DNA of 64,000 nt from Diphasiastrum complanatum (lineage: Eukaryota; Streptophyta; Lycopodiopsida; Lycopodiales; Lycopodiaceae), in NCBI GenBank assembly GCA_029204225.1, contig CM055106.1:41060368-41124367 (forward strand), read 5' to 3'. The notes beneath the pieces were generated by a model. The model had not been told where the DNA came from. It ran no database searches and saw nothing but the letters and a program-made list of their open reading frames with translations. Shown here one piece after another: positions 13,393 through 39,765 of this stretch. A program made the translations under genes and the position numbers. How positions within the stretch are numbered: the first letter of the stretch is position 1; each line of letters opens with the position of its first letter.

Positions 13393-14105
13393 CACAAATC
13401 TGAACGCAGAAAAAAGAGCTGTTATCAGATTAAGTATATCAAATATATATGTCAATATTGTCGTAGAGCACAAGACAATAGCAAACGAAACCATGTGCTC
13501 TACAAAGCTAATTCAATCTATAAAGGAATGAAACCTTATTACTGACAATAAAGAATCAATACATAAGGCATCTACTTCATTTATCTCTCTGATGAGCTTC
13601 TGATGCTAAATTTACACACACTTGATCTTCAATCTCTTAATGAAAGATCAGATTGAATACGCAAATGGTATTCAATATATATACATATTGTTACAAGTGT
13701 GCAGATGAAAAAAGTACAAAGTGAATGTGTTGTTTGTAGGAGATCGTGGGTGGCTGCAATCGTTGTCAAGTCTATTAGTGCAGTTGCATGGGACGAGCGT
13801 GAAGAGGCCGCGACGTCAGCCTTTGCTGAAATGAAAGTTGGTGAAGATGCGAAATATGCGACACTCTAACGAAATGCCTTAGGATTGATTTACAGGGTGC
13901 CTTCGGCATTTTTGTAAGGCAGTGTCATCTTTTTCTCTTGTCAGAAATCACGTGTAAAAACACAATGTTGCGTTTTTCACTTTTCTTCGCCTGTGAGAAT
14001 TTACATGTAAATATGCAGACTGCACGACAATGTGAGTAAATATGCAACAAGAATGGAGGCAGATCAAAAATGTGATTTAGGAGAGTAGAGGAGATAAATC
14101 CAACA
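13393..14105 (-). repeat. Truncated 5' LTR of copia A, left copy
   Basis: Starts TGTTGGATTTATC at 14105 and matches the first 700 bp or so of the 3' LTR, ending at CAGATTTGTGT. The last 400 bp, the primer site and the gag start are gone. It retains the 120 bp segment that the right-arm copy lacks. Confidence 0.85.
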
Positions 14106-15475
14106 CTTGCTTGCTTTGCCATATTCGAACATAATACCTTTGATTGATGATGGATCTTCCTTGGTCCTTTTCTCCAAAGATGTATGCACATAGCAAATGC
14201 ATCCAAACACTTTAAGTCCTTGGGATTTGGCTTTCTCCCGTACAAGACTTCAAAGGGTGTTTTTCCTTCAATAGAGCTACATGGAACTCTATTTATCAAA
14301 TGGTTAGCACAAGTGAGCGCTTCTCCCAAAAAGATTTTGGTAAACATGCATCAATCCTTAAGACTTTAAACATTCACACAATGTCTTGATCACAAAAATC
14401 TTTAAAAGCATTGGAGATATATTTTCCACCATTATCACTTCTAAAAGTTTTGATCTTTTGATCAAGATGCTTCTCAACAAATGCTTTGAACTTAAGAAAG
14501 CTTTCAAATACTTGTGCTTTAGATGATAGAATACAAAACCTTGAGTAATCATCTATGAAGGTAACAAAGATGGTGGCACCTCCATTGGACATTGTACTTG
14601 CAAAGTGTACATCTGAGTGGATCAACTCAAGTTGATGAGTTGTCTTTGTCATTGAACTTGAGAAGGGCTTCTTATGTGCTTATGAGAGAGCACATGGTTC
14701 ACATACTTTCTGCTCTTTTGCCAAGGATCTTGGAAGTCCTAAGGCAAGCTCCTCCTTACACATGACCTCCATGGACTTTGATGGTTGGATAGTTTGGTCT
14801 CCTCGGCTAGCATCACAATATTAGCGTCCACATAGGCATCTAATTTGAATAATCTTTCAAATTGTATGCCTCTAGCAATGATCTTGCCATCCTTTTTGAG
14901 GTTACATGCATTTGTGGTGAACTCCACAATCAAACCATTGTCAAGCAATCGTCCTACACCAAGCAAGTTCTTAGTGATACTAGAAATGTAAGAGTACTCC
15001 ATCAATCTTGATCTTCCTTGAAGATCCCAAGCATAAAGGTATGGATCCTATGCCTTCTACCTTACAAGCATAATCATTTTTTGTAAAGGTTGACTTGATA
15101 GGTCCATCATAGGTAGATAAGTTTGAGAAATACTCACTCTTACTTGTCATGTGAGAGCTAGCCCCACTATCTATCCACCAAGGGTCTTCACCTCTTATGC
15201 TTGAAGATGAGAGACTTGACATCGGAGTGAATCTTCATGAGAGCTCTCCTCTTCCTCTTGGCCTAGGTTTTTCTTGACTTTGAGATTGCTTCTTCTTGAA
15301 GCACTCCGAGGCATAGTGCCCCATCTTGCCACAAAAGTAGCATTTGATCTTCGACTTATCCTTCTTTGGCTTGCTTGAGCTTGGACTTGAAGATCCTTCT
15401 TGATCTTCACCTTTGACTTGATTCTTCTTGAATGCAGCATCCTTGCCTTTGGATTTGCTCTTGCTCTTGGTTGAG
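14106..15475 (-). pseudogene. Copia B, 5' half (gag knuckle, protease, integrase), left copy
   Basis: Minus-strand copia pol upstream of the copia A insertion. Zinc knuckle CYFCGKMGHYASEC near 15300-15350 shows a complete C-X2-C-X4-H-X4-C. It is followed by protease WWIDSGASSHMT (about 15180), the pre-integrase block SSITKNLLGVGRLLDNG (about 14960), integrase with LIHSDV (first Asp) and FRSDNGGKYIS (second Asp; the Glu-Tyr position is Lys-Tyr here), and finally NRVPCSSIEGKTPFEVLYGR. It breaks off at the GCAAG target duplication and resumes at 9186. Stops and frameshifts are present, and the gag N-terminus and LTR are missing upstream. Confidence 0.9.
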
Positions 15476-15552
15476 AGAAACAGATTCTGATGTTGACAAA
15501 ATCAGATTCTGTCTCGTGCTAGAATCGACAAACATTTGGCGCCGTCGCCGGG
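15476..15552 (+). mobile_element. Ultra-short LTR-like end plus tRNA-Asp-type primer site
   Basis: A segment TGAGAGAAACAG...CGACAAACA of about 60 bp is followed after TT by TGGCGCCGTCGCCGGG (15537-15552). The complement resembles the 3' end of tRNA-Asp, the primer used by many plant Athila/Tat and small LTR elements; one base differs from the right-arm copy (TGGCGCCGTTGCCGGG). The piece abuts the copia B gag. Reading rightward, the T-rich block and gene-like unit L2 follow. I found no second LTR, so this may be only a truncated end. Confidence 0.45.
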
Positions 15553-15599
15553 CTTGCAGCCTTACCCTAATTTATGAAATGAGCAACAAAAGGTGTTGT

Positions 15600-16465
15600 A
15601 GTTATCACATCATTTTGCGTTTTTGGGAACCGCCAGTCAAAAGTCCGATTTTTTTGGAACTTTTGAGTTTGTCGATTTTTGCATCCGCTGCTTTTTGAAT
15701 TTTTTGAGCTTTTCGATTTTTGCATTTTTTCGAGTTTTTCAAAAATTGCGTCCGATGATCCCATCCGACGATTGCATCAGACGACTGCCAAAAATCTAAA
15801 AACAATGCAAATATTTTCTCAAACAACTGCATCCGTTGCTTTTCTCAGTCTGGTATTTCCTATTTTTTAAATTTTCGGAATTTGAGCATTTTCTCTATTC
15901 GACAAGTTATTTTCCAAAAATATTTCATTTTTTTCAAGTCTCTCCAGTTTTTTCATTTTTTTGAGTTTCTTCACTTTTTTAGAGTTTCCACCGTGGCGCC
16001 GTTGTTTTGCACCGCCAGAAAAAAAAATTCGAGTTTTTTCACTGTATAATAAATTTTGCATTTGCTGACCTACAATAAATGTGCATTCGACAATAATTTG
16101 CATTTGCTCTTATTTCAGATTTTCGAGTTTTTGAAATTTTTGAGTTTTTCTTAGAAACTTCCATCTGACGTTTTTCTCCAGTTTTTTGAATTTTTGATTT
16201 TTTTTTCGAGTTTTTCATGTCTTTTCGAGAATTTTTTAAATTTTCATTTTCGAGTTTGTTCAAAAAATTTCGAGCTGATGACCACCTCACACGAGCAATC
16301 TATCCAAAAATTGCACCCTTTGAAATTATGGTTTTTGTATTTTTTTCGAGATTTTCGAGTTTCTCAGAAATTTTTCGAGTTCTCTAACTTTTTTTTGAGT
16401 TTTTTTTCGAGAAAATTGTGTCCGACGATTCCATCTGATGAGCTGCACAATGACTGCTGCATTTT
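15600..16465 (+). repeat. T-rich block of degenerate TTTTTCGAGTTTTT repeats
   Basis: About 0.9 kb dominated on the plus strand by T-runs interrupted by CGAG (TTTCGAGTTTTT and variants, more than a dozen times) and by a second recurring motif of the type CATCCGACGATTGCATC. Open frames on the opposite strand (Lys/Asn-rich, such as 15867-16103 and 16039-16290) are by-products of the composition. The right arm has the same block at 46072-46937 in reverse, almost unchanged. Confidence 0.8.
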
Positions 16466-16467
16466 TT

Positions 16468-16560
16468 AACTAAGTTTCGCACAGTCTACATTTTTTTAAC
16501 TAAGTTTCTCATAGTCTGCATATTTGAACTAAGTTTCGCACAGTTCACATTTGTCACCTT
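16468..16560 (+). repeat. Three tandem copies of a ~31 bp repeat
   Basis: The unit AACTAAGTTTCGCACAGTCT plus a T-rich tail occurs three times in tandem with small changes (TCGCACAG, TCTCATAG, TCGCACAG). The mirror copy in the right arm is at about 45977-46069. Confidence 0.85.
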
Positions 16561-16774
16561 TTTCATTTTTTGCCGTAAATTCTTATTTACATGCACCTTC
16601 TGGGATGTGGAAGATGCATGTAAAAAAATTTGAGAAAAAAGGAGGCACAAGAATTACATTCTATGAGGCACCTCCTTTTCCTTCATGAAAAAGCAAAAAA
16701 TGATTTCACATTCCACAAGAACATTCAAAAGTATAAACATCATTTGTGAGAAACAAAATACTCTTGTAACATTT

Positions 16775-19035
16775 TTGTCTATGTATATGCATGTATGAAA
16801 TTTTGGGTCGGCCCTTTAGGGGACTTTATCGGGCCCTTTAAATACAATAACCTCAATAAGCTCGTCAGCTTTTCCTCCCTTCGTCCTATATAAACAAGCT
16901 TTTTACCAGTTAAAGAACAATGGCGAAGGGAAGGGAGGCCTTCTCAGGAAAGGGCAGGCTCATGTTTTGCTTCTATATATGCTCAATTGTCTCTATGCTA
17001 CATCTATCTGTCCTGTTACAAACACGATCGTGTTTTGGTAATGCTATGTTAATAGGTATGTATTTCGATTTCAATGATGAGGCCGTATGCAGATTGCTTC
17101 AATGGGCTTGTTACCGTTTACCTTTGGCTGCGGAATTTGGTGTATGCATCGCTCGCAACCATGCATTTTTGTTGTGCAGATGAATGAAGTATTTGGAAGA
17201 CAAAGAACGATGATCATTCGGCCTCGCTGCGCATCTCGTTATGCAGAAAGCAGATACAGAAATCCTATTACCTAAACCCTATTACTGACTGCTTAATTGT
17301 GTATCCAGTGGATGGCATTGTCATAAGCAGCAGATATGAAACCCTAGCCAGCTTATTGCTTGGCTATTGATCTATTGCTTTGAAAAGTATTGGGGCTTTT
17401 GGTTCAATCACGACGTCATGGATAGTAGAAGGCAATCGAGGGAATCTGGTTTCTCATTCTTTCTTTGCATGGCTTCTAATTTGTAGTGTTTTATCCTTGT
17501 GGCTCTAGCAGGCAGATACATTAGGATATTGCTTACACTTGCCAAAGTTCAAATAATATACATCCCATGTGCTGCCGCCAAGGTATTAAGCGTGTCGTTG
17601 TTGTTATTATACTCTTTTGTTATATCTGTAAAACGTTTGCCATGTGAACTGAACGCATGCACCTATGATTCTGTGAGGATCCAGACACAAAGCTAGAGTA
17701 CTACAGTTTTTTGCATATCCTTGATTAATTTTTGGCACAAGCCATGAATTTATATTACCACCCTCTTCGATTTGCATGTGTCCAGGGCGCACGGAATTGT
17801 CAAATGAGTGCGTATATCAACATTGCCAATGATGAGCTGTCTCGAGGGGTTGCACTCCGCTACTAACCAGAATTATCAGTGGTGATTTGGAATCATCTGA
17901 GGTTATTCTAGTCGAATTGTTGTGAAATGGTTCTATCGAGAAAGCATGTCATTACGAGTGCGGAATCCATTTCGATTCTCAAGGCCAAGTTGCCTCTCCA
18001 ACCTAAATTAAGGTCTGAATACTTTGCATTTTATGCTTCTATCTCTTGCTTATGCTGAAGATGTATTTGCAATAGGAGCTTTGCCCTTATGGGTGCGCTT
18101 ACGGGGCGAGTTCCACGATAATAAAACAGTCATTTCAGTCGGCTTCTGGAGGTGTTCCTCCTGAAGTGTCAGCGTCGGAGTTGCATGGTCGTCTTACTTT
18201 TTGTACTGTCTGGTCCTTATTGGAATGTTGATTTTGATGGTGGTAGAAGTCCCTACATAAAGTATACAAATAATGTGCTAGTTCTGTGCACTGACATCAA
18301 AGCAATCCATATGTTCCAGGTGCTGCAACTTCAGATCGATCATCTACATCTGAGTTCTTCATAGGTAACTAAGAACAAAATAAAAACAAGCTAAAAATTA
18401 TTCGAGAATGAACTTACTTCAAAGGAATCCATATGTTTCTGTTGCTGCAGTGTTAGATTGATCATTATCTTCATCATGAGTTGTTCTTCATAGGCAGTAC
18501 AAATAAAACAAACGGAAGATTCAAAATAGTTCAAAACCGTACAAGATAGATTAAGTTGAAAAGATTTATTTCTGTGGAAAGATGACTGCATTGGGAAGTT
18601 TTGAGAGTCAGCATGAGCTTCCATCAACAGTGCCTGGTACTTAGAGAGCTATCAAAGCAAACTTATATCCGGACAGCATTCAATAGTTTGGAGAACCAGT
18701 TGAACTTTGAAGCATTTGCAAAGCTAGAGAGCTTAAAGTGCATCAGAATCATATAGCCCTACATGAGCTTCACCGTTCTTTAATGTTTATATGCCAAGTC
18801 CCTCCTTGTCGTCTTGCCAAGCACCTTCGTGAAGGGGTCCTTCTAAGAAATGTGCAAGGCTTACACTTACCTGCTTTGCTTTACTCTACGGTGCTTGAAC
18901 CAAAATCACCAAAATTCGGCTCAAAACTTTTGCAAATATCAAATATGGTTTCGCAAATTCTCAGGATATCCACTCATCTTGGTTTTACACAATAATGCAT
19001 TATATCTAAATGCCATACCAAGGGTCATTGCATGT
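16775..19035 (+). pseudogene. Gene-like unit L2, unknown function (most complete copy)
   Basis: This plus-strand copy of the 2.2 kb unit starts near TCTATGTATATGCATGT. ATG at 16920 opens MAKGREAFSGKGR and runs 87 codons to 17183. Recurrent exon-like stretches are 17172-17270 (…RQRTMIIRPRCASRYAE…), 17784-17920, 18040-18180, and a 3' part (about 18620-18995) with LSKQTYIRTAFNSLENQ. Its homology with R1 continues to about 19035, beyond the inner end of the inverted repeat. Stops interrupt any full-length translation unless introns remove them. I recognise no domain. It could be a retained host gene with many short exons; transcript data would decide. Confidence 0.5.
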
Positions 19036-20162: not shown

Positions 20163-20404
20163 CGAATTTATTTTCCATTGTATTCATTTTAATTTATTGT
20201 ATTGAACATATGAAAATCATATCATTTTTATAACATACCTCAAATTTTCAGGATTTTTGAAACACTTTTATAAATTGTTTTTCATTACGATTCCGGATTC
20301 CGGATTCGATCAAGTCGAATAGGACGAAAATATAACATTTCGAAGCACATCCTAACAAAGGTTACTATGCAATACGTAACCTATATTTCGGTTATAACAT
20401 TTCT

Positions 20405-20869
20405 ATGTCAGATTGGAAGACTATGTCTCGGGTAGAATTGAATGCCCTCAACACATACCTGGGGAGACAACTTGGTCATCTCTCCGACACAAGAGCTCGA
20501 CTGACAGATGGTCTTATCACAATTGAAAACGTTTTGAAGATCTTGGAACGAGAAACTACTAACACATCGATTACACATCAGGTTCATATCCTTTAATCAT
20601 TCTAATGTACAATTTGCGTACAATGCATTTTATACACAAATGTAGATACAAACTTGCAAATAACAAATAACATGTGATAACTCTCGAATTTTCACAACCG
20701 ATATCACAACGATTTTTTTCTAGCAAAGAGGCTTGTCAAGTTAACGCTATTTTTTTAATCGAAATAGATATTTTTCTATTATAAAAGCAAACCCATTCAT
20801 TTTTAATATTCTTCGCAGGATCCGCCACCGCCACCCCCACCGAAACGACTACGAGCAAGTTCTTTATAA
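20405..20869 (+). CDS. Small two-exon ORF with Pro-rich basic tail, palindrome 1 left copy
   Basis: Exon 1 (20405-20581) encodes about 59 residues, MSDWKTMSRVELNALNTYLG onward, charged and helical-looking. A donor CAG/GTTCAT and acceptor TTCTTCGCAG/GA define an intron of 237 bp (20582-20818). Exon 2 (20819-20869) gives D-P7-KRLRASSL then a stop. The copy at 38013-38485 has the same intron (236 bp) and the same PPPPP-KRLRASS tail, which argues that the splice is real. Exon 2 overlaps the start of the GIY-YIG frame in another phase. Function unknown; the basic tail might be a nuclear localisation signal. Without the splice it would read 63 residues to 20596. Confidence 0.45.
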
Positions 20870-21170
20870 TCTACAAAATAATCGCTCGAATAGGCAAGCT
20901 AACCTATATCGGCCAAACAACATATTTTGACAAATGCATGTGACAACATGCTCATAGACCATCGAAAGGGATGGTTATAACAGGACTTGCGGTGATTTTT
21001 TTGATTATTTCGAAGCTCGGATATTAGCAATTGTTAATGAAATTGACTTGCGGCGATACTTCGATTGCAGATAGATTGGAAAAAATGTATATTAAAATGT
21101 TTAGATCTCAAAAAATGCAAATTTGCGATAACTTAAGCAATCGTCCATCGCTCTTATGCAAATTTTTGGA
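20845..21170 (+). pseudogene. GIY-YIG nuclease, broken copy (palindrome 1, left arm)
   Basis: The reading phase starting at 20845 shows the SKFFIIYK block and LTYIGQTT of a GIY-YIG domain, then a stop after FDKCM and a frameshift in the middle. The C-terminal block with LEKMYIKMFRSQKMQIC is intact in another frame (21031-21231). The start codon of the intact copy (ATG) is ACG here. The opposite arm carries the intact version. Confidence 0.8.
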
Positions 21171-21628
21171 AACGTCGATCTCACATATAAAATTTTTTGA
21201 CACATTTTGTCGATTCGTAATCTTAGTATAAATTCATAATTTTAATTCAGTTATTAATGAATTCTTTTGCAATATTTTGAATAACTTTGTATTTTTTTTC
21301 TTTAAATAATGTAGAGTTTTTATTTACGTTCATGATTTTGTCAAGATATTCAAACTCAGTTGAAAAACGTTCTCATTAGCAATCAAAATTAGTTAAAAGA
21401 AATTATTAACTAGCAACTATTTCAATTCCGACCTTGTTCTTGATCATTATTGATTTGAAATGTTTTGATTTTCTAAAAAAAATTTCAAAACACATTTATG
21501 TAACTACCAACTGTGTGATTACAAACCTTTTTGAGAATGACATTTGTATGCTTAATAGACCCATAGATAATGCTTTTATAATTTGTTATTTCATGTTCCT
21601 TTTCAAAATGCAAGTTTTTTTTAAGTAA

Positions 21629-21823
21629 CGACATAACGACATCAAATTTACATCATGGTTCGAATACAAAAATCAATTATCATTATGGCATGCAATTCGC
21701 TCTTTACAATTTATGTTTGTCTCGATTCGAGACAAACATAAATTGTAAAGAGCGAATTGCATGCCATAATGATAATTGATTTTTGTATTCGAACCATGAT
21801 GTAAATTTGATGTCGTTATGTCG
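21629..21823. repeat. Perfect palindrome core with 1-base spacer
   Basis: About 97 bp on each side of base 21726 are perfectly self-complementary (apex ...TTTGTCTCGA-T-TCGAG...). It would form a cruciform with essentially no loop. Such centres are normally unstable and usually lose symmetry at the apex. Confidence 0.95.
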
Positions 21824-22838
21824 TAACTTAAAAAACTTCCATTTTGAAAACGAACATGAAATAACAAATTATAAAAGCATTATCTATGTGTCTATTAAAC
21901 ATAGAAATGTCATTATCTGAAAGGTATCTGTAATCACACAATTAGTAATTACAAAAATGTGTTTTGGAATTTTTTTAGAAAATCAAAATATTTCAAATCA
22001 ATAATGATCAAGAACAAGGTCGGAATTGAAATAGTTGCTAACTGATAATTTCTTTTAACTAATTTTGATTGCTAGTGACAACGTTGTTCAGCTGAGTTTG
22101 AATATCTTGACAAAATCGTGGTTTCTATAAACGTAAAATAAAAACTCTACATCATTTAAATGGCAAAATACAAAGTTATTCAAAATATCGCAGAAGAATT
22201 CATAGATAACCGAATTAAAATTATGAATTTATATTAAGATTACGAATCAATAAAATGTGTAAAAAAATTTCATACGTGAAATCGACGTTTCAAATACCAA
22301 TATTTGCGTAAGAGTGATGGACGAATGCTTAAGTTATTACAAATTTGCATTTTTTGAGATCTAAACATTTTGATATACATCTTTTCTAATCTATCTGCAA
22401 TCGAAGAATCATTAACAATTTCTAATATCTGAGCCTCAAAATAATCAAAAAAATCGTCGCAAGTCCTACCATAGACTATCCCTTTTGGTGGTCTATGAGC
22501 ATGTTGTTGCATGCATCTGTCAAAATCTGTTGTTTGGCCGATATAGATTAGCTTGCCTATTCGAAAGACAATTTTGTAGATTGTGAAGAATTTGCTCGTA
22601 GTCATTTTGGTGGTGATGGCAGTGTCAGGTCCAGCGAAGAATATTGAAAATTAATGAGGTTTTTTTTTATGATCAAAAATATCTATTTTGAACAGAAAAA
22701 TAGCGTTAAGTTGACATATCTCTTTGCTAGAAGAAGATCGTTGTGATATCGGTTGTGGAGATTCGAGCGTTATCACCTGTTATTTGTTAATTGCAAGTTT
22801 GTATTTACATTTGTGTATAAAATGCATTGTAGGCAAAC
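21727..22838 (-). repeat. Right arm of palindrome 1, inner part
   Basis: Mirror of the left arm from the apex out to the gypsy insertion point. It carries the intact GIY-YIG ORF on the minus strand. It continues after the insertion at 29109-29525. Confidence 0.92.
22270..22605 (-). CDS. GIY-YIG family endonuclease, 111 residues
   Basis: Single-domain GIY-YIG nuclease frame. Visible motifs: TIY at residues 8-10, YIG at 21-23, the catalytic Arg30 in FDRCMQQH, and the metal-binding Glu74 in RLEKMYI. The spacing fits the roughly 90-residue GIY-YIG fold; nothing follows except a short basic tail. Known members nick or cut DNA in homing endonucleases, repair and Penelope-type retroelements. ATG is at 22605; both plus-strand copies have ACG at this codon, so translation may originally begin elsewhere. 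Upstream on the same strand (after removing the gypsy insertion) are the small ORF, the 128-residue ORF and the Helitron-type Rep/helicase. I infer a nuclease of a DNA transposon. No reverse transcriptase lies in the module. Confidence 0.8.
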   Translation of the reverse strand: MTTSKFFTIYKIVFRIGKLIYIGQTTDFDRCMQQHAHRPPKGIVYGRTCDDFFDYFEAQILEIVNDSSIADRLEKMYIKMFRSQKMQICNNLSIRPSLLRKYWYLKRRFHV

Positions 22839-23757
22839 TGTTGTAAAGCTGACTCAGGTGCACCCAACGTGCCCTGTAAGACTCTAAGGGGTGACACTCC
22901 CTAAGGTCCCAGAGCAAGTTAGAACGTCAAGGACTGAGCCTCCGACCTGTGGTGAGCCAGTCAAGTAGTCACAAGTCATGAGCTAGCTCTGGAGCTCGAG
23001 TCATGGCCTAGTCAGGAAGCAAGTTGATTCTGCCACCGGAACGGCTCCCGGGACCCATGTCCGGGAGCCAGACTGATTCTGCCAGGCTTGCCAGGCTTAA
23101 TCAGCAAAATAAAAACTAAGTCCCAAAAAGCGTGCTTTACCAGAAAGCACTATGTTTCAGAACAGAGGGGGTGCGCCGAATCACAGCAGAACTATAGGGG
23201 GGAGTCCGGCAGACAGAAACTTGGGCAGCTCAACCAGCGCCAGGAATCCAGTCGCCAAGTCTCAGCTCCCTCTACCAGCACGAGCCAGGCACAATGCCCA
23301 GCACGTGTTGGTGGCCCCGAGACCGGTCAGTCTATGTATGAATGTAACCTCTTCCAAATCTAATAAAGTTGATCCTTGGGGATGATTACCATTTTGGTTT
23401 CGCCTCCGGGACTGGTCCAAGTGGAAGGACCCTTACTACAACCTTTTTGTGTCGCTGGCGCCTAAGGGTCCTTGTCATCGACATGGGGCTTGCCGCTATG
23501 TCAATTGGTCAGTTTGGCGACCACTATGCCTTGGGTTTCATGTGTGGCTTGTCTTTGCCTTTGGTTACCTTTTGGGGACGGATTCTGAGTTGGCTTTTGG
23601 GTTGGTTGGGATTCCAGTTTTCTTAAGTCTGAATGGTTAAGCTTGTTACGTTTCTGAGTTGGCTTTTACGTAAGTGCATGATGGATGAATGTTAGACTTA
23701 AGCGCATATTGAGGAAACCGCTCAAGTCCCATCGCCTTTTGAGGCGCCGGCGCAACA
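22839..23757 (+). repeat. 5' LTR of the chromovirus (919 bp)
   Basis: TGTTGTAAAG to GCGCAACA, same length as the 3' LTR. It contains an AATAAAG-type signal near 23362. Confidence 0.96.
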
Positions 23758-23759
23758 TG

Positions 23760-23773
23760 TGGTATCAGAGCCG
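23760..23773 (+). other. Primer binding site, initiator tRNA-Met type
   Basis: TGGTATCAGAGCCG two bases after the 5' LTR; complementary to the 3' end of plant initiator tRNA-Met. Confidence 0.93.
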
Positions 23774-24471
23774 ACTAGCCGGTCAGCTACGCAAGTCTCA
23801 CAGGGATGGCCACGTTTTGGGATTTGTCAGAACAACCGTTGCTCAAGGTGCTGCCCACAGTGTAAGCACGGGTGCGTCCACGGTCGGGGTGGTCGACAGA
23901 ACGGGGGACTTGATGAGTCAAAGTGCTGCCCTCGAGGTGTAAGCACGGTCAGTTCTCGCGGTTCGGGCCTGGCGCTGTTTGCACGTAGGACGGATGAGAC
24001 AAAGTGCTGCCTAGGTAGGTGAAAGCACGGTCTGTACCTTGTGGGGTGCGGGGCGACATATTCGAACTGTACGGATTAACCATTGATACAGAGATGCTGC
24101 TCGAATTCGGGTGTAAAGCACGGGTGGTTAGCTGCCGGTGCGGGATAGCTGCCGATCGTTTAGCTATAAGGGTTATCGACCAAAAAGTGGTGGGGCGTGA
24201 CTGAGGCAATGTGCTGCTTAATGGTGAAAGCACAGATGGTTGGATGGATGTTTTCCCGTGGACTAATTCTGTGATAGATTTGTGTGGGCGCGGCTAGGCA
24301 AAGATCCTACGTCCGGTCTCAAGGGGAATGTGACTTGAGAGGGATCCTCTGTTTAGCTTTGGTTGGTATGTTCGTTTGTGGTGTGCTTGCTTGGACCTGA
24401 ATTATCCCTGACTACTTCTTTTGATCCAGGTGATCTGATCTAGTTGGGAGTTGTGAGAGGAGCTTACATTT

Positions 24472-27400
24472 ATGAGTGGACGACGCACAAGTATGGAAAG
24501 GAACTTCCATGGGGCAACCCCCAAGATTGGTTCAAGATTGTTATTCTTATCAGGAAAGATCGCGAGGAGGAAGTCAGATTTCATGATCGACTCCGGAGCT
24601 TCACATAACTATATCTCAAGGAGCGTAGTGGAACAATTCAGCTTGCCGACCAGGAATGTTACATCTACTCTCAAGGTAGAAACAGTGAAGGGAGCACTAG
24701 ATGCAGACAAAGCGACATTGAACATCCCGGTGCAGATTGGAAGATGGAAGGCTAAACTTAACTTTGTGATTTTAGAGATGGATGCCTTTGATGTGATTTT
24801 GGGCCTCCCTTGGTTAAATGAACACTGTATCGCAGTTTTGGGTAGGAGCTCAAATTTGGTCCTCTTGGATTATAAGGGACAAATCTGCGTGACAAAAGCC
24901 CTGCCCGGAGGAAATGCTAAGGATACCGATATTGAACAAAATCTGGTTACAACATTAGTGATGAAAAGAATGGCGAAAGGGAAAAGGTCAAAGTGCTTTC
25001 TTTGCATCTGTCGAGAAGTCCCAGAAGGGAAAAGCGTGCGACAAGAAAACTTGCCAAAAGAAGTGGCAGATCTGTTAGAAAAATTTAGCGATGTGTTCCC
25101 GGAGGAACTCCCAGCTAAGCTACCTCCTCGAAGACCAGTGGACCATAAAATTGAGTTGGTACCAGGAACAGAGCCAACTTCACGAGCACCCTACAGAATG
25201 TCACAAGAAGAGTTGGCGGAACTGAAACGACAACTTGGTGAATTGATAGACAAAGGTTTTATTAGACCTAGCGCTTCACCTTTTGGAGCCCCAGTGTTGT
25301 TCGTGGAAAAGGCAGACAAAACTCTTCGAATGTGTGTGGATTATTGCATGCTTAACAAGAGTACCATCAAGAACAAGTACCCCATGCCTAGAATTGATGA
25401 CCTATTCGACCAACTCAAACATGCCAAATACTTTAGCCGAATAGATCTCAGATCTGGATATCATCAAATTAGAATAGCTAAAGGTGATGAGCACAAAACG
25501 ACGTTTCGAACGCGGTACGGAAGTCACGAGTTCCTGGTGATGCCATTCGGTCTAACAAACGCACCAGCCACTTTTTGCACGTTGATGAACAATATATTTC
25601 AAGACTGCCTGGATGAATTCGTCATTGTGTACATTGATGACATATTAGTATTTAGCCGGAACCTTAAAGATCACATTCAACATTTAAGGACAGTTCTCCA
25701 ACGACTGAGGAGGAACTGCTTGTTTGCGAAAAGAGAGAAATGTGAGTTTGTGGTGGAGGAAGTTGACTTCCTTGGACATGTTATAGGCCACGGACGGATT
25801 CGAATGGATCCTAAGAAGATCAAGGCTATCTTGGATTGGCTAGCACCTAAAACTGTTCATGGCATCAAATCCTTTGTGGGCTTATGTAACTTTTATAGGA
25901 GATTCATTGAGGCATTCAGCAAAATTGTGGCACCACTGTTGGAGCTGACTAAGACTCATCTGAAGATGACATGGACACCGGAATGTGAAGCAGCGTTCCA
26001 AGAACTAAAGCGACAGATCACTCAAGAACCCATCCTTGCCTTACCGGACTTTAGCAAACCTTTTGAAATACATACAGATGCGTCGAACTTTGCTATTGGG
26101 GCCGTGCTGATGCAAGACGGAAAACCTGTTGCATATTTTTCAAAGAAATTGAGTGATGTAGAGCGACGATGGCCAACTCATGAAAAAGAAATGGTCGCAG
26201 TAGTCCAAGCAGTGGAGCATTGGAGACATTATGTGGCAGGAAAACCCTTTAAGGCGTTCACTGATAATGTATCACTCAAGTACTTCTCATCCCAAGGTAT
26301 GCTCACGCCAAAGCAAATGCGATGGCAAAACTTTCTCTCAAAATTCAATATAGACATTTTACACACGGCGGGAAAGAACAATGTGGTGGCGGACGCACTA
26401 AGTAGACAGGAACACTTGATGGCAACAGTGAAAACTCAGGTGACTGACCTACTCCAAGAAATCAGAGAGAATTATGGTGTAGATGCGTTGGCGAAGGACT
26501 TAATGATCGAATTCCAACTGGGAAAGCCTCATAAACATTTCACTTGGAAAGATCAAATGGTTGTTTATAAACAACGCAGAGTATATGTCCCAGACAACAT
26601 CAACCTGAGGAAGAAAATCTTGCGAGAACATCATGACGTACTAGCCGCCGGGCATCCAGGGGTGAATCGCATGTATGAACTTCTCAAAAGAGGCTTCTAT
26701 TGGCCAAGTATGTGGGCAGATGTTGAATCCTATGTACAAACATGTCCGACATGTCAACAAGTGAAGGTGGAACCGCTAGCTCCAGCTGGACTACTCCAAC
26801 CATTACCGGTACCAGCATACCCATGGGATTCGGTGAGCATGGATTTTATTGTTCAACTACCACGGTGCCAAGGATTCGACTCAATTTATGTGGTGGTTGA
26901 CCGCTTTTCAAAGCAAGTTCATCTAGTACCAACTAAAAGTTCAGTGACAGCTGAAGAAGTGGCAAGGTTATTTTTCAAATGTGTTTTCAAATACCACGGC
27001 CTGCCTAGAACGATTATTTCTGACCGAGACACCAAGTTCGTCGGAAAGTTTTGGACTTGTCTATTTCGCCTCGTGGGAACCGGATTGAATTTCAGTACTG
27101 CATATCATCCTCAGACTGATGGGCAAACGGAGCGAGTCAATCGACAGATTGAACAATATTTACGAAATTATGTCGCTTGGGACCAATCCGATTGGGTCAA
27201 CTACTTGGATATTCTCGAGTTTGCACATAACAACAAAGTGAACAGATCTACTGGAAGGGCACCCTTCGAGATAAGCAATGGTCGGCTACCGATTGTTCCA
27301 AGCTCTTTTCTTACAGGCGTGCAGGAAACACCAGTACCCACTGTAGAGGAATTCATCAATGAGTGGCACACAAAGCTGACCGAGGTGAAGGCGTTTTTAG

Positions 27401-27948
27401 AGCAATCACAAAGGAGTATGGCAGCTGACGTAAACCCACATCGACGAGAACTGGAATTTGAGGAAGGTGATCAAGTATGGCTGAACACAAAGAACATTGC
27501 GCTACCAAAAGGTTTTTCTCATAAGTTTGCTCGACCTTATGCGGGACCATATTATGTCACCAAGAAGATCAACTCAGTGGCTTATCGATTAGCGCTGCCA
27601 TCCAGCTTGGATATACACAATGTGTTTCATATCTCATTACTGTACAAACCAGATGAGCGAATTGATCGGCAACACGAACTCCGTCACCCACCAACGACAC
27701 TTGATGATACGAAGAGGCAGCTTGTACCAGAACAAATATTGACACATAGAAAGCGAACTGGCGTTCAACGTGAATATCTAGTGAAGTGGCTACGGGCTCC
27801 ACTTATTGAGGCTTCTTGGGAGTATGAAGACAAACTTAAGGAGGGAGCCCCTGAAGTACTAGCAGATTATCTGCAGAAGAACCAACGCAATAGCCGTTTT
27901 CCCAGATCGGCACACAAAGCACTACCTGGCCGCATGCCTTTTACATAA
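24472..27948 (+). CDS. Gypsy pol polyprotein with chromodomain (1158 residues)
   Basis: Intact frame carrying, in order: retropepsin (DSGA at 40-43, DVILGLPWL near 105), reverse transcriptase from about 220 to 400 (RMCVDY block, [22 protein letters not shown], active site YIDD at 387-390), RNase H ([21 protein letters not shown]), integrase with the CPTCQQ zinc end, catalytic SMDF and ISDRDTKF blocks and [15 protein letters not shown] near 880, and a C-terminal chromodomain ([11 protein letters not shown]...ASWEYEDKL). It would make the enzymes for copying RNA into DNA and integrating it; chromodomains of this group bind modified histones. The start at 24472 is the first Met before the protease. 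No gag domain or zinc knuckle precedes it, so particle protein must come from another copy. Confidence 0.96.
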
Positions 27949-28177
27949 ACATTCATGGCCATTCTGAAGTTCAAGGAACTTTCCGGTATTTTTCTTAAGT
28001 TTGCCAATAAATCACTTGCAGCTTTACACAGGTTTTACGTAAGTGAACTTTATCTACACTTTTCCTGTGCTACTGCCAATGTATTTTGTAATTCAAAGTT
28101 GCTAAGGCCGGTGAATTAAGCCCGTGCCATACGTCCTCGGTCTAGTTTGGCCCTGATGAGGACATCAACTTTTTCAA

Positions 28178-28189
28178 ACGAGGGGAGGA
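28178..28189 (+). other. Polypurine tract of the chromovirus
   Basis: ACGAGGGGAGGA immediately before the TG of the 3' LTR; primer for plus-strand synthesis. Confidence 0.9.
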
Positions 28190-29108
28190 TGTTGTAAAGC
28201 TGACTCAGGTGCACCCAACGTGCCCTGTAAGACTCTAAGGGGTGACACCCCCTAAGGTCCCAGAGCAAGTTAGAACGTCAAGGACTGAGCCTCCGACCTG
28301 TGGTGAGCCAGTCAAGTAGTCACAAGTCATGAGCTAGCTCTGGAGCTCGAGTCATGGCCTAGTCAGGAAGCAAGTTGATTCTGCCACCGGAACGGCTCCC
28401 AGGACCCATGTCCGGGAGCCAGACTGATTCTGCCAGGCTTGCCAGGCTTAATCAGCAAAATAAAAACTAAGTCCCAAAAAGTGTGTTTTACCAGAAAGCA
28501 CTATGTTTCAGAACAGAGGGGGTGCGCCGAATCACAGCAGAACTATAGGGGGGAGTCCGGCAGACAGAAACTTGGGCAGCTCAACCAGCGCCAGGAATCC
28601 AGTTGCCAGGTCTCAGCTCCCTCTACCAGCACGAGCCAGGCACAATGCCCAGCACGTGTTGGTGGCCCCGAGACCGGTCAGTCTATGTATGAATGTAACC
28701 TCTTCCAAATCTAATAAAGTTGATCCTTGGGGATGATTACCATTTCGGTTTCGCCTCCGGGACTGGTCCAAGTGGAAGGACCCTTACTACAACCTTTTTG
28801 CGTCGCTGGCGCCTAAGGGTCCCTGTCATCGACATGGGGCTTGCCGCTATGTCAATTGGTCAGTTTGGCGACCACTATGCCTTGGGTTTCATGTGTGGCT
28901 TGTCTTTGCCTTTGGTTACCTTTTGGGGACGGATTCTGAGTTGGCTTTCGGGTTGGTTGCGATTCCAGTTTTCTTAAGTCTGAATGGTTAAGCTTGTTAC
29001 GTTTCTGAGTTGGCTTTTACGTAAGTGCATGATGGATGAATGTTAGACTTAAGCGCGTGTTGGGGAAACCGCTCAAGTCCCAGCGCCCTTTGAGGCGCCG
29101 GCGCAACA
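28190..29108 (+). repeat. 3' LTR of the chromovirus (919 bp)
   Basis: Pairs with 22839-23757 without indels; about 16 substitutions by eye. Followed by the target duplicate CAAAC. Confidence 0.96.
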
Positions 29109-29525
29109 CAAACTATACATTAGAATGATTAAAGGATATGAATTCATGCGTGTTAGTTGTTGTCATAATCGAGGTGTTAGTAGTTTCTCGTTCCAAGATC
29201 TTCAAAACGTTTTCAATTATGATAGGACCGTCTGTCAGTCGAGCTCCTGTATCGGAGAGATGACCAAGTTGTTTCCCCAGGTCTATGTTAATGGCATTCG
29301 ATTCTGCCCAAGACATAGTTTTCCAATCTAACATAGAAATGTTACAACCGAAATATAGATTATGTATTGCATAGTACCTTTGTCAGAATGTGCTTTGAAA
29401 TGTTGTATTGTTGTCCTATGCGTCTTGATCGAATCCGGGATCGCAATGGAAAATATGTTATAAAAATGATATGATGTTCATATGTTCAATACAGTAAATT
29501 AAAAAAAATACAATGGAAAATAAAT
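29109..29525 (-). repeat. Right arm of palindrome 1, outer part
   Basis: Continuation of the palindrome after the gypsy insertion; mirror of about 20163-20625. It ends at the shared AAATTTATTTTCCATTGTAT region. Beyond this, left and right flanks differ. Confidence 0.9.
29113..29334 (-). pseudogene. Small ORF, palindrome 1 right copy, splice sites lost
   Basis: Encodes MLDWKTMSWAESNAINIDLG and on through GHLSDTGARLTD, homologous to 20405-20581 and 38013-38186. The donor CAGGTT is changed to GAATT, and the acceptor (in the inner arm, about 22632) reads TG instead of AG. The chromovirus sits between the two exons. In contrast, the neighbouring GIY-YIG frame of the same arm is intact. Confidence 0.55.
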
Positions 29526-29872
29526 TTAAAAAAAAGAGGTGATTCCACAGGTTGTCCGTGACGTTCATGCACATACGCTTCTTTTGCACATTTTTGTATT
29601 GTTATATACGTGCTCATAGTGTAATTATTTTGAAACATGTTTTTGTATTGTTCCAGATCAACTCCACAAGCATTTAACGGGAACATTTGTCGCGTCATAG
29701 GATAAATTTGCAATTCTTCAATATCTTCAGACGTCGAATCTTGCAGTTTTTGAACTTTTTCTTTTAATTTTCGAAAAAACTTGCGAAAGTTTTCATCATG
29801 AAAATTATTATTAGAATTAACTTCTGAATTTCGAATAGTTAAAAGCATTGTTTTTTTAGGTACTTTATTCAA
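29486..29872 (-). CDS. Hypothetical protein, 128 residues, between helicase and palindrome
   Basis: Open frame on the same strand as the Rep/helicase, ending 20 residues into the palindrome edge. It is Lys/Asn/Glu-rich with a helical stretch (FFRKLKEKVQKLQDS), then MTRQMFPLNACGVDLEQYKN. The last residues (FFKFIFHCIFF) come from AT-rich palindrome sequence. I recognise no domain. A helicase C-terminal extension or an accessory protein of the same element are both possible; it could also be a chance frame in AT-rich DNA. Confidence 0.4.
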   Translation of the reverse strand: MNKVPKKTMLLTIRNSEVNSNNNFHDENFRKFFRKLKEKVQKLQDSTSEDIEELQIYPMTRQMFPLNACGVDLEQYKNMFQNNYTMSTYITIQKCAKEAYVHERHGQPVESPLFFKFIFHCIFFNLLY

Positions 29873-30113
29873 TCATACAAAATGATTTACGATATTCATA
29901 ACAATGTACATTTTCGGCCTCTGAAAGTTCTGGTAATTAATGCCATATCAGATGTCTGCTTTGTAGAATTGAAAAATTAGAAATGAAATACTTTGGATAT
30001 GATATTACCAAAACAATGAACAACAACATTAAAAAAATTAATATGTAGTAGAATAGGACTATATTGTGAATATTAATTGACAATGGTTACTGTTGGATCA
30101 AAATCTGCGGGTG

Positions 30114-33100
30114 CTAATTTACTTGTAAGAATATGTTTTCTTGTCTTGTCACTCGAGATAACATAACATAGGTAAATTCTGGACAGAAACTTTTTTGAAT
30201 ATTAATTATTGTAGTGTCATGGATTGTATTGCCTTGTGATTTATGAGCTGTAATAGCGTATGCTAATGTTAAAGAAAATGTATATTTGTAATATATTTTA
30301 GAATCGTACCTCGATTTTTTAGTAGTTAATGGTATAATTTTCATTTTTTTGTCAGATCCATTAATTGTTATCGTGATAGAATCTATTTCGTTGGTTTGTT
30401 TTGAATATGCAAAGTCTTGAATCGTTCTGATCACTCCATTAACTATTCCATTTGTTATGTCTAGATTCGCAAGAACCATGACCTTTGCATTTATTGCAAT
30501 TTGGTCTAGTTGATGAAATGATGAGTCTTCAACCCATGATTTAAATTCTAGATTGTCCGATGCATTTGTTTTCATTGGTACATTTATGATGTTCTCATCT
30601 TTGAAGATTTTTTCCAATGCACATTTGTTATATCTTTTGAGATTTTTTGTGTGCGTGCATATTATTGTCACATTAGAGCTAATCATTTTAAGAATTTGTT
30701 CTTTTGAAATTATTTGTTTATTCAATGTATCATTGATTTCTTCTAATGTTGCCTTTCTAAATCTCATCGTGTTTAAAAATGAAAGATACAAGGCATATGA
30801 CGAGTGTCGAATCGAATAAGTCAAGTGGATTTGAATCGCCATTTTTCAATATAAAGATGTGGAAATGTTGCATATCGAGCATAAGTTATCGGTTCTATGT
30901 TTACATATTGCTGGCAAATGCGCATGATCGCTTACTAATAACAAGATGAAATTTTGGAAAGGCAGGCGATATGGATTTAATGTTACTTTATTTATTTGAT
31001 GTATGACAAGTTGTAACGTTTGAGCAGTCATCATAGATATTTTGTCGATAATAATGATATAAACATTAAGTATTGTTTTGTAACGCATGTGAGTAGACAT
31101 CAGATTTCGTATATATAGAGCATTAACAGGAATCGAAAATAAGTTGTGCACTGTTAATGCACGTATACTAAGCCTAGACGAAGCTGCACCTGTTGTGGCA
31201 CACAACAAAATAAACTTGTTCATTTCTTTGAGCGAGAATGTTAGATATTTTATTAGATGCATTTTTTGACTTCTCGCTGAACCTGATAGTACAAAAATAC
31301 TGACTCATTTGACATCAAAATCGAAAAAGCATTTTCTTGTTCCGTTGACAAAGAAGGATTTTCAAATGATTGAAATCATGTGAAATACCTAACATGTTTT
31401 TTGTATCATTTGCTAATGATACATGAGCGTTATTTTTTTAATCAAATATGACTTGAAATAATGGCTCACGAGAAAATGATTTATGTTGCAGTAAGATATT
31501 TATAATTTATTGTCGTTGTTCATTTTGAAACATTTGTTTATTCAAATAATCTTCAACATAGCGTTCAATGTCTTTTTCATCTCAAATGAAATCACGCAAT
31601 ATACATTATGTATAATATGATCGATCATTGTTGTCAGGACTTAAAAGTTCACGTTCTTCTTGAAATTGGCATCTTTCTAATAACACATTGAAAACAAAAC
31701 CTTCTATTTGATACGCAGGATGATAAGTTATGAATCTAATTACTTTAGTATTTTTGTTGAACAGCCTCATTTCTTTTGATAATAGAGATTGGTAAACACG
31801 TGAAACTAATTTCTGACAATGATATCGGTTTTGTCAAGATGTAGCTAGATATTAATTTTAATACATTTTCATCTGCATGAGATAACCCGATCTTTTTTGG
31901 ATCATCTATATTCAAATTCAATGGCCCTGTTGGCTCTGACTTCATTGTGTATATCAATAGGTAATATGACCAGCCTGTGTTTGTAATCCGTTGTAAATTC
32001 ATGTGCGCTTGCCATAACAATAGCATTGTTGGATGGTAAGGTACTATGTTACGATCTTCATATGTAGGTCGAAAGTATTGCCATCGTTCTATTTCTGTGT
32101 CCAATTCAGTTGATGTCGAACATTTTTCGAATGGAAATCCATACAACTTTTTTTGTATCACCTTTGATGGTGCAAGATGATCGACAATAATGGATTTATT
32201 TTCGTACGACTAATTCATATATTTGTTTTTCTATTGGATCTAATGGAATTTCGAATTTTTTTGTCTGCAAATTGAATTTTACATGAACGAATGCAACGAT
32301 TTCATTTCCAATTTTTTTTCACATCTTTTCTTTTAACCCATAACATGATATGGGCATGTACAAAATCTCGATTTTGAAATTCATATTGTAACAGTAATGT
32401 TTAATTCGTCCTAAGATAGCTCTTTTTGAAAGAACAAATTCTTTCATAAATAGTTCTAATATCTTGAAAAAAAACAATGAACATTCAATTGAACAATTTC
32501 TCTAATCAAAATCGATATTATAGTTTTTCACTATTTCTTCTATTTTGTCGGATTTCTGACCATCGTAATTTAGTTGTTTCATCACTTGTCAATGTCAAAA
32601 AAAAATCTGGCAATCCCCAATGTGTCACCATCGTTAATAAATCTTTAAAATTTTGTCTATGCCATGACGATGTGCCTGGCATTTCACGTGGCAAAGTGAA
32701 TTTCAAAACGTTTCTAAAAATTTGTTCATTGTTTGCATTTGGATGTTTATTAACGAAATCGATAATGTCTTTTTGCAAGACAACGGATGACACCTTTGTT
32801 GTTATCAAGATGGCTTGTCGTATTTGATACAATATAAGTAAATATGGTGGAAATAGAGCAAACGGCGAAAACAATGAAGAAACTCTCATTTTTGATATAA
32901 TCAATATAACGTATTTTTTATTATAGTAACCATGGCCAAATGGAAACAGAAATGAAAATATTGCATTTTCTAATGTGATCAATTGTTTTTCTTCAATCAC
33001 TAATGGCAATCCAGAAACTTTTGTTCTAAACATTGATATTTCTTTTCTTTCATGTCCCGTTTCTCTAATTCGTAAATTCAAATATGTATATATGTCATCT

Positions 33101-33162
33101 TTTTGAATATCTTGTCTTTTGCTACAGGGCGTTACGTCTTGTAATAATATATATATACGCAT
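30114..33162 (-). pseudogene. Helitron-type Rep/helicase, decayed
   Basis: Minus-strand fragments in order. 33162-32518 ends in a Helitron N-domain signature (GTSSWHRQNFKDLL, then GLPDFFLTLTSDE). Near 32385-32330 another phase reads YEFQNRDFVHAHIMLW, the HUH metal-binding motif of rolling-circle initiators. 32161-31745 contains NIVPYHPTMLL and YYLLIYTMKSEP, the position of the catalytic tyrosine helix. 31262-30846 is the helicase core: ATTGAASSRL, Walker B as IIIIDKISMM (Glu replaced by Lys) and the DHAHLPAI block. 30842-30114 has YAITAHKSQGNTI and YVMLSRVTRQENIFL, motifs V and VI. Frameshifts and stops break it into at least five pieces, so it is inactive. Family assignment is firm; the association with the downstream GIY-YIG ORF is inference. 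Confidence 0.88.
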
Positions 33163-34440
<1,278 letters not shown>

Positions 34441-37707: not shown

Positions 37708-38012
37708 AAAAGAGGACAAGTCTTCATGTATATCAAGAAATATTCCATCCAATTTGAGAATTAGAAGATCAAATCCTCGCAAATTTTTAATAAATAACTC
37801 TGAAAACAATTCAAATTTCAATACTCAATTCAAAAAAAGATAATAGCTTGCAACTCAAGTTTTCAAAAATTTTGAAACACTTTTATAGATGGTTTTCCAT
37901 TGCGATCTTGGATTCAATCAAGACGAATAGGACGACAATACAACATTTCGAAGCGTATTCTGACAAAGGTTACTATGCAATACGTAACCTATTTTTCGAT
38001 TATTGAAAAACT

Positions 38013-38485
38013 ATGTCTCGAACAGAATTGAATGCCATCAACACAGGCCTGGGGAGACAACTTGGCCATCTCTCCGACACAGGAGCTCGACTGACAGACG
38101 ATCCTATCACAATTGAAAATGTTTTGAAGATCTTGAAACGAGAAACTATCAACACATCGATTACGACAACAACTAACACGCATCAGGTTCATATCCTTTA
38201 ATCATTCTTATGTACAGTTTGCCTACAATGCATTTTATACACAAATGTAAATACAAACTTGCAATTAACAAATAACAGACGATAACTCTCGAATATCCAC
38301 AACCGATATCACAACGATATTTCTCTAGCAAAGAGGTATGTCAAGTTAATAATATTTTTTGTTCGAAATAAATATTTTTCGATCATAAAAAAGAACCCAT
38401 TAATTTTCAATATTCTTCGCAGGATCTGACACCACCACCACCACCGAAACGACTACGAGCAAGTTCATCACAATCCACAAAATAA
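38013..38485 (+). CDS. Small two-exon ORF, palindrome 2 copy
   Basis: Exon 1 38013-38186 encodes 58 residues starting MSRTELNAINTGLGRQLG. The intron is 38187-38422 (236 bp, GT...AG). Exon 2 encodes DLTPPPPPKRLRASSSQSTK and a stop. Intron length, splice sites and the Pro-rich basic tail agree with 20405-20869. Unspliced reading stops at 38201. Function unknown. Confidence 0.45.
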
Positions 38486-38748
38486 TCTCTCAAATAGGCA
38501 AGCTAATCTATAGAAAAAAAACAACAAATTTTGACAGACGCATGCGACAACGTGCTCACAAACCACCGAAAGGGATGGTCTATGACAAAACTTGCGACGA
38601 TTTTTTTGAAGCTCAGATATTAGAAATTGTTAATGATTCTTTGATTGCAAATAGATTAGAAAAAATGTATATCAAAATATTTAGATCTCAAAATATAAGA
38701 ATTTGTAATAACTTTAGCGATCGTCCATCACTCTCACGCAAATATTGA
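38452..38748 (+). pseudogene. GIY-YIG nuclease, palindrome 2 copy, active site lost
   Basis: The frame is still open and runs TTTSKFITIHKI to the C-terminal LEKMYIKIFRSQ block. However, the YIG motif has become YRK and the GIY-side motif is TIH, so it should be inactive. No ATG at the start (ACG). A short deletion (YFDYF region) is also seen relative to 22270-22605. Confidence 0.75.
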
Positions 38749-39765
38749 TATTTGAAACGTCGATCTCACATGAAAATTTTTGACACATTTTATTGATTCG
38801 TAATCTTAATATAAATTCATAATTTTATTTTTTTGATATTTTGAATAATTATGCATTTTTTCCTTTAAATGATGTAGAGTTTTTATTTTACGTTTATAGA
38901 AACCACGATTTTGTCAAGATATTCAAACTTAGTTGAACAACATTGCCATTAGCAATTAAAATTCGTTAAAAGATATTATCAGCTAGCAACTATTTCAACT
39001 TCGACCTTGTTCTTGATCATTATTAATTTGAAATGTTTTGATTTTTAAAAAAAATCTCATAATACATTTCTGTAATTACTAATTGTGTGAGAATGACATT
39101 TTTGTGTTTAATAGACACATAAATAATGCTTTTATAATTTGTTATTTCATGTTCTTTTTCAAAATGCAATTTTTTTTAAGTTACGACATAATGACATCAA
39201 ACATACATGGGTCGAATACAATAATCAATTATCATTACATGCAATTCACTCTTTCAATTTATGTTTGACTCAAATAAGGACAAACATAAATTGTAAATAG
39301 TGAATTGCATGTCATAATGATAATTGATTTTTGTACTCGACCCATGTATGCAATTTGATGTTGTTATGTTGTAACTTAAAAAACTTGCATTTTGAAATGG
39401 AAAATGAAATAACAAATTATAAAAGCATTATCTATGTGTCTATTAAACATAGAAATGTCATTCTCAAAAAGGTTTGTAATCACACAATTAGTAATTACAT
39501 AAATGTGTGTTGGGATTTTTTTAGAAAATCAAAACATTTCAAATCAATAATGATAAAAACATAATTGAAATAGTTGCTAGTTAATAATACCTTTTAACTA
39601 ATTTTGATTGCTAATGGCAACATTTTTTTCAACTGAGTTTGAATATCTTGGCAAAATCATGATTTCTATGAACGTAAAATAAAAACTCTGCATCATTTAA
39701 AGGGAAAAAGATAAATTTATTCAAAATATTGCAGAAGAATTCATTAATAACTGAATTTATATTGG

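Follow-up and report, generated by a model that had tools for sequence, protein, structure and literature searches.

A stretch of 64,000 nucleotides from the lycopod Diphasiastrum complanatum (the whole of which is referred to here as the window; C15:41060368-41124367, contig CM055106.1 of assembly GCA_029204225.1) contains the degraded remains of one member of a large family of Helitrons, which comprises two or more subfamilies and further copies of which were sought in the 1.74 Gb genome (5176 contigs). The family is probably best described as one of Helitrons that combine RepHel with a second gene, here called ORF2, an overlapping GIY-YIG frame and a 3' end made of a hairpin and CTAG, with the large palindrome of the window as a by-product of folding back at that hairpin. 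The genes stand in one order, on one strand and at a characteristic spacing, and are followed by a defined 3' end.

Gene order and genomic linkage

The coding parts of the main copy lie on the minus strand of the window. They begin with a degraded Rep (Helitron_like_N) part of RepHel at 32518..33162 (PF14214, E 4.2e-8; at most 90% amino acid identity to the Rep of other copies), followed by a middle part at 31745..32161, which is an open frame homologous to other copies with a YxxxY-like stretch seen by eye and no Pfam match, a PIF1-like helicase part at 30846..31262 (PF05970, E 9.5e-9) and a C-terminal helicase part at 30114..30842 (PF21530, E 0.0024, under the cut-off). ORF2 and the GIY-YIG frame at 22270..22605 (PF01541, 34.2 bits; cut-off 22.6) complete the series. 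The minus-strand order of Rep, PIF1 helicase, a 128-residue open reading frame (ORF) and a GIY-YIG ORF, which an earlier note had read from the letters of the window, is thus confirmed by Pfam (PF14214, PF05970 and PF01541), and Rep and a PIF1-type helicase form a single coding unit, with both PF14214 and PF05970 above their cut-offs.

The same arrangement recurs elsewhere in the genome. Searches with the GIY-YIG protein and with the C-terminal helicase frame gave 773 and 1037 candidate places, respectively, of which 150 each were scored (for the helicase, 150 of 151 matches were used). Among the 150 scored GIY-YIG places, 56 have one of these helicase matches within 10 kb, and in 46 of the 56 both are on the same strand, the nuclease being downstream in every case (46/46). 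The gap between the two matches is 529-1578 bp in 45 of the 46, and 1289-1386 bp in 31. Some of these same-strand places are duplicates of one locus, and the 46 are therefore not independent insertions. The opposite-strand places (10/56) include five parts of palindromes (four on C5 and the mirror arm of the window) and one second copy in the window. The suggestion that Rep/Hel, accessory ORFs and nuclease belong to one element, and would be found on the same strand within 10 kb of each other, is in this way borne out among the scored places by strand, order and spacing. Furthermore, in 20 chosen 10-kb loci, ORF2 matches were present in 20/20 and RepHel peptide matches in 13/20, which together with the linkage argues that the GIY-YIG frame is part of the element.

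It might be supposed instead that the palindrome with GIY-YIG and ORF2 represents a fold-back transposon or homing-type parasite of its own, nested beside a Helitron by chance, a proposal prompted by the copy at 37854-39763, which lacks a helicase, and by the 94 of 150 scored GIY-YIG places that have no scored helicase match within 10 kb. Many copies are internally deleted, and in loci L009, L011, L018 and L020 little or nothing of RepHel is left. Against a nested parasite stand the constant strand, order and helicase spacing of about 1.3 kb in two subfamilies, the overlap of the GIY-YIG frame with an ORF2 exon, the presence of ORF2 exon 2 behind the helicase in one copy of a distant lineage, and the fact that single copies finish at a Helitron-type 3' end. 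In addition, the inverted repeat at both ends of every copy that defines a fold-back or terminal-inverted-repeat element is not seen, 30 of 40 scored 3' ends being without a full second arm. We regard this proposal as extremely unlikely.

The scored GIY-YIG places are unevenly distributed, with 37 of the 150 located in less than 2 Mb of one chromosome (C8:0.6-2.5 Mb). At the two loci inspected there (L026 and L027) they form inverted pairs about 5 kb apart, and the Helitron 3' module seems to have been amplified locally.

The 3' end and the palindromes

Single copies of the element read past the position of the palindrome centre through TTTGACTCGAA-TCGGGACAAA-ATTGCGTAG-CTAG (with variants), followed by TT and then by unrelated DNA. 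This layout, a hairpin, 9 nucleotides and CTAG, lies at the folding point of the palindromes. In a set of 20 distinct 3' ends (6, plus 3 of subfamily B, plus 11 merged from 17 stretches by identical flanks), the hairpin is followed by ATTGCGTAGCTAG-like bases and then by TT, the TT being found in 20/20 and CTRR in 18/20; copies whose end was lost or not reached (C12, L025, L028, L006/L012, L007, L008, L014 and L019) were left out of this count. The constant TT may represent a target preference or two extra terminal bases. Both the 3' subterminal hairpin and the CTRR-3' terminus of a Helitron are present, and since the available text of PMC4778049 describes Helraiser as having 5'-TC/CTAG-3' ends with a 19-bp palindrome 11 nt before the end, the 3' end found here resembles that of a canonical Helitron.

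In the window, the palindrome is formed by a mirror arm on the plus strand (20165..21725), which duplicates the terminal 1.56 kb of the element, and by the original 3' arm on the minus strand, which lies at 21727..22838 (inner part) and 29109..29526 (outer part, past an inserted retrotransposon). The match is far above chance, and includes a 216-nt arm at 90% identity and a 109-nt arm at 99% with a 1-nt spacer; the mirror arm carries a decayed GIY-YIG frame (20848-21165) and a decayed ORF2 exon 2 (20246-20572). The junction at 21716..21736, which has no strand of its own, coincides with the hairpin of the single 3' ends and is predicted to fold as a single strand at -18.8 kcal/mol (z -10.3). 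It is here, at the centre of the palindrome, that the element ends; the outer edge at 20163 was considered as the terminus and rejected. A second palindrome of the same 3' module, without a helicase, occupies 37854..39763 (no strand assigned), with its centre near 39285 and a right arm truncated to about 0.48 kb.

A junction search with a 219-base query, centred on the 3' hairpin only, returned 41 candidate places, of which 40 were scored: eight have both arms (two in the window and six on C5), two (on C18 and C4) match a single arm plus 24 nt of the second, and the remaining 30 are single or partial. In all eight two-arm junctions the turn is made at the 3' hairpin and the 13-base ATTGCGTAGCTAG tail is gone on both sides. 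In a ninth palindrome, locus L007 on C5, the centre has been lost. The C18 and C4 junctions are nearly identical to one another: the 24-nt arm is found to one side only, while to the other side there are four bases of the tail followed by the long arm. Read through, they show the hairpin followed by ATTG, with which the tail begins; the complement of the arm then sets in, without the bases that are predicted to bulge in the hairpin of single ends. Priming by a folded 3' end would be expected to leave such a junction, but so would a deletion between facing elements through the ATTG microhomology.

The earlier note had taken the giant palindrome for the natural terminus of the element. The palindrome itself is real, but single ends carry the hairpin and CTAG and 30 of the 40 scored ends have no full second arm, and the palindrome was accordingly rejected as the element's end. 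A constant distance to the edge of the palindrome, which would have been expected from such a terminus, is not observed either: the shorter arm measures 24 nt on C18 and C4, about 0.21 kb in L057, 0.48 kb in the second window copy and 1.56 kb in the main window copy, and it reaches into the helicase in L055, which is a double element with a helicase on each side. An undescribed DNA element with a giant hairpin or palindromic end resolved by its GIY-YIG nuclease, as that note proposed, would agree with the mirrored arm at 10 of 40 scored 3' ends, all of them centred on the hairpin (the only place at which the search was aimed), and with the Slx1-Slx4 entries, which concern branched DNA, at ranks 14 and 15 of a Foldseek search with the nuclease model. 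The missing second arms, the range of the shorter arm from 24 nt to several kb, and the common flanks of L013 and L015, which show that C5 palindromes were duplicated with their surroundings, make this proposal highly unlikely.

The arms within one palindrome are 86-90% identical. Identity is higher near the centre, at 99% in the first 100 bases of the window palindrome and 89-93% in six others measured, which could reflect conversion. In a tree of palindrome arms, the C5 loci L013 and L016 each have one arm that groups with the arm of opposite orientation in L015, and the same holds for their remaining arms (each 100/100), indicating that the palindrome was formed once and then copied. The DNA flanking L015 and L013 is shared as well (95.8% over 740 bp), so that the C5 palindromes appear to have been copied with their surroundings, and the spread of L013, L015 and L016 is most simply explained by segmental duplication; transposition of these palindromes as units was judged less likely on account of the common flanks of L013 and L015. 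The two palindromes of the window group together (97/99), with their internal order unresolved. From these relationships we infer at least three palindrome events, on C15, on C5 and on C18/C4.

In Helitrons, the Rep protein cuts and peels a strand, and the 3' hairpin is relied upon as the stop signal. For Helraiser, the accessible part of PMC4778049 describes the 3' hairpin as acting as a terminator. In the explanation preferred here, a strand ending at or just beyond the 3' hairpin would fold back and prime the copying of itself, yielding a palindrome that is centred on the hairpin and has lost the 13-nt tail. The free 3' end might be generated by a GIY-YIG cut, by resection of an ordinary break or by mis-cutting by Rep. 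Two insertions facing each other would at first leave two tails, neither of which is present in any of the 8/8 junctions.

Two elements inserted tail-to-tail, with the facing tails and the spacer later deleted between the hairpins, could nevertheless account for several features: the merely 86-90% identity of arms inside one palindrome, the C5 arms being about as distant from each other as from the C15 arms, the length of both elements in L055 with a helicase on each side, and the ATTG at the C18/C4 junction, which a microhomology deletion would also leave. However, the eight two-arm junctions all share a single hairpin with both tails absent, and the same facing site and the same precise deletion would be needed repeatedly, on C5 and on C15. 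We consider this course of events unlikely.

A larger share of doubt attaches to the last step. Fold-back might be nothing other than ordinary break repair, taking place at any short inverted repeat and unrelated to transposition, and this account, which overlaps with the fold-back explanation and differs from it in the final step only, is one to which we give a little less than even weight. Fold-back inversions through single-strand hairpins have been described in yeast and human work (PMC7467729, in the portion available), as have very short templated inverted duplications at breaks (PMC11724301, likewise in part). The events found here, in contrast, centre on one hairpin; because the junction search was confined to that hairpin, they provide no comparison with other inverted repeats.

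As for the nuclease itself, its role would most likely be a second, structure-directed nick during transposition, for example at the 3' hairpin or at an integration branch; it may also process the hairpin. The more specific idea that it is a transposition factor which cuts at or beside the 3' hairpin, so that the resulting 3'-OH would prime on itself in a manner resembling rolling-hairpin replication and give rise to tail-to-tail double elements, is doubtful.

ORF2, the nuclease frame and the subfamilies

In addition to the 128-residue ORF, a small two-exon ORF had been noted in the window. Both are present, and on the evidence of splice signals and frame they read as one gene, ORF2, in which the two-exon ORF follows a first exon supplied by the 128-residue ORF. 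This exon 1 corresponds to the central part of the 128-residue ORF and is at 29540..29779 (minus strand; 59% identity to ORF2a of subfamily B), a partial and degraded exon 2 at 29143..29382 (minus strand; 71% to exon 2 of another copy), and a putative exon 3 of 57 nt, with its donor altered in the window, at 22720..22776 (minus strand). In most of 16 aligned copies the segment between exon 2 and the last exon is likewise 57 nt long, and it is bordered in most of them by an acceptor-like ...ACAG/GCAG and a donor-like GTATG. The four predicted exons share one frame, which ends in PPPxxKRxRxSxS, and the C-terminal PPPxxKRxR tail is a candidate nuclear-localisation-like motif. No Pfam match above cut-off was obtained for the ORF2 frames, a homologue search with exon 2 found none, and the structure model of exon 2 (pLDDT 57) was too weak for use.

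The GIY-YIG frame overlaps the last ORF2 exon (exon 4) in a shifted frame. With a PF01541 match (48.3 bits in subfamily B, against the same cut-off of 22.6) and the catalytic residues both found, it is predicted to encode a nuclease. Two tyrosines and an asparagine are invariant in 12/12 aligned proteins and a glutamate is kept in 10/12, and we take these to be the active-site residues of a GIY-YIG enzyme. The structure model (pLDDT 72) retrieves with Foldseek, as its top eight entries from the PDB, six UvrC GIY-YIG structures together with EF2693 and UPF0213 (E 0.04-0.26), the last two being small bacterial proteins of that fold; given these E values, support for the fold is moderate. A homologue search with the GIY-YIG protein of the window found none. 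With the GIY-YIG alignment as query, 17 distant proteins were retrieved at 30-42% identity, and distant matches lie on three viral contigs.

In subfamily A the ratio of nonsynonymous to synonymous substitution rates (dN/dS) for the nuclease frame is 0.35 (36 pairs, two rows having stop codons), and between A and B the synonymous sites are saturated, with dN at 0.31. The ATG seen in the window was rejected as the start codon of the family, as it occurs in only 2 of the 16 aligned copies (the main window copy and L011). An ACG lies seven codons ahead of the first conserved tyrosine in 15/16 copies, and translation may begin at this non-AUG codon. Inspection of the 16-copy alignment by eye revealed no conserved frameshift or alternative splice site for the frame.

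The longest RepHel frame noted is one of 800 amino acids in the C3 copy, extending from just past the HUH region through the helicase; just ahead of it, in the neighbouring frame, is an HxH stretch (VHAHIMLW) that we take to be the HUH motif. A fully intact RepHel frame was not seen among the copies inspected. Subfamilies A (window-like) and B have GIY-YIG proteins that are 54-62% identical and RepHel DNA that is about 72% identical, with the layout kept in both. Among the B copies that were compared, identity is for the most part 90-95%, which indicates that B moved more recently. A more distant group was also met in the helicase search (41-47% identity). One of its copies, L080 (C7:5516500-5519000), has ORF2 exon 2 behind the helicase (49% identity, E 7e-17), after which no match to ORF2 exon 1 or GIY-YIG was found at E <0.1; other frames and a long TC repeat occur instead, and the copy may be truncated here or may have captured host DNA. 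ORF2 may accordingly have joined RepHel earlier than the GIY-YIG frame did, although a single copy lends this little support.

Upstream of RepHel, a segment of some 200 bp that was compared in C6, C12, C3, L009 and L018 is about 80-84% identical between A and B, above the roughly 72% of the coding regions, and has 444 candidate genomic places, of which 40 were scored.

Several observations weigh against the explanation of this family as GIY-YIG-bearing Helitrons that fold back at their 3' hairpin, in addition to the 94 scored nuclease places without a nearby helicase match and the alternative origin conceivable for the C18/C4 junctions, namely a deletion between facing elements by way of the ATTG microhomology. 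The element's 5' end was not found, since the copies fetched continue upstream, nor with it a 5'-TC terminus or an A|T target; a TC at coordinate 816 of C3 was tried as the 5' end and rejected, as six fetched copies run on upstream of it. The hairpins of single ends are weak when they are folded by themselves (-3.7 and -3.0 kcal/mol; z -0.8 and -0.7), and L077, which was excluded from the count of ends, terminates within the hairpin and lacks both the tail and a second arm. The palindromes found lie in the C5 and C15 neighbourhoods and in the C18/C4 case, which implies few independent events. As regards the nuclease, 3 of 12 aligned copies have another residue in place of the YIG glycine, the dN/dS in subfamily B is 0.78 (15 pairs), which might fit young copies decaying after insertion, no ATG is conserved across the 16 copies, so that expression of the frame is only putative, and no GIY-YIG match was found in the 2.5 kb fetched for L080.

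The remaining features of the window concern its structure around the element. A Ty3/gypsy long terminal repeat (LTR) retrotransposon on the plus strand (22839..29108; LTRs at 22839-23757 and 28190-29108, 98.3% identical over 919 bp, with a 5-bp duplication CAAAC at the flanks) splits the right arm of the palindrome, so that the gap in this arm is later. It is fairly young and has a single open polyprotein frame of 1158 amino acids. At 44-53% GC it differs from the Helitron region (26-36% GC per kb), in agreement with the AT-richness, relative to retroelements, that had been remarked on in the window. The recognisable 5' non-coding part of the Helitron is at 33531..34363 (minus strand; similarity to L015 and C5a), beside which a perfect 112-bp GA repeat and then a 27-bp tandem repeat occupy 34252-34438. 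A large inverted duplication (64-18496 and 44044-59533; arms of about 15-18 kb, 94-99.5% identity) with frames that by eye are Ty1/copia-like brackets the 25-kb stretch containing the Helitron, and may continue beyond the left edge of the window.

Comparison with known elements

No earlier report of a GIY-YIG frame in a Helitron was met in the open-access text that could be consulted, a scope that does not extend to Repbase and subscription journals, nor did titles and abstract openings on Helentrons and RepHel, on Helitron palindromes and fold-back, or on accessory nucleases reveal one; in these open texts, as far as they were available, joint mentions of GIY-YIG and Helitrons concern Penelope elements, Terminons, a viral Mariner, homing enzymes and other genes. 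Compared with canonical Helitrons (Helitron1; Helraiser/Helibat), the element has in common a RepHel with Helitron_like_N and PIF1 domains and a 3' palindrome with CTAG-3' (PMC4778049, in part), and differs in the addition of ORF2 and a GIY-YIG nuclease. Penelope-like elements and rotifer Terminons also have GIY-YIG domains, and Terminons can carry Rep ORFs (available text of PMC6431247), but both are built on reverse transcriptase, for which no match was found among the element frames scanned. The viral Mariner PGv-1 is similarly a DNA transposon with an accessory GIY-YIG gene, according to the portion of PMC3627910 at hand, its transposase being of the Mariner and not of the rolling-circle type. 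Plant Helitrons with RPA genes share the presence of a second gene next to RepHel (PMC4683698, excerpted), in contrast to which ORF2 has no Pfam match above cut-off and no homologue found for its exon 2.

A parallel in organisation is offered by Helentrons (Helitron2), which are Helitrons with an added endonuclease (PMC5148889, in part) and for which asymmetric terminal inverted repeats are described together with hairpins at either end (PMC3627910, in part). The Helentron endonuclease is derived from a retrotransposon, as stated in the accessible text of PMC5148889, whereas the present element has a separate GIY-YIG frame and a CTRR-like 3' end, and no retrotransposon endonuclease domain of Pfam was detected in the scanned, incomplete RepHel frames. 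The two nucleases would be analogous in place, not in fold. The fold-back junctions, for their part, may record strand ends as they occurred in vivo, and so bear on the function of the hairpin as a terminator. To our knowledge, the Helentron endonuclease is the sole extra nuclease described for Helitrons, and a CTRR-type Helitron whose nuclease has a different fold and was acquired independently would point to a benefit of a second cut for such elements, besides providing a system in which this can be tested.

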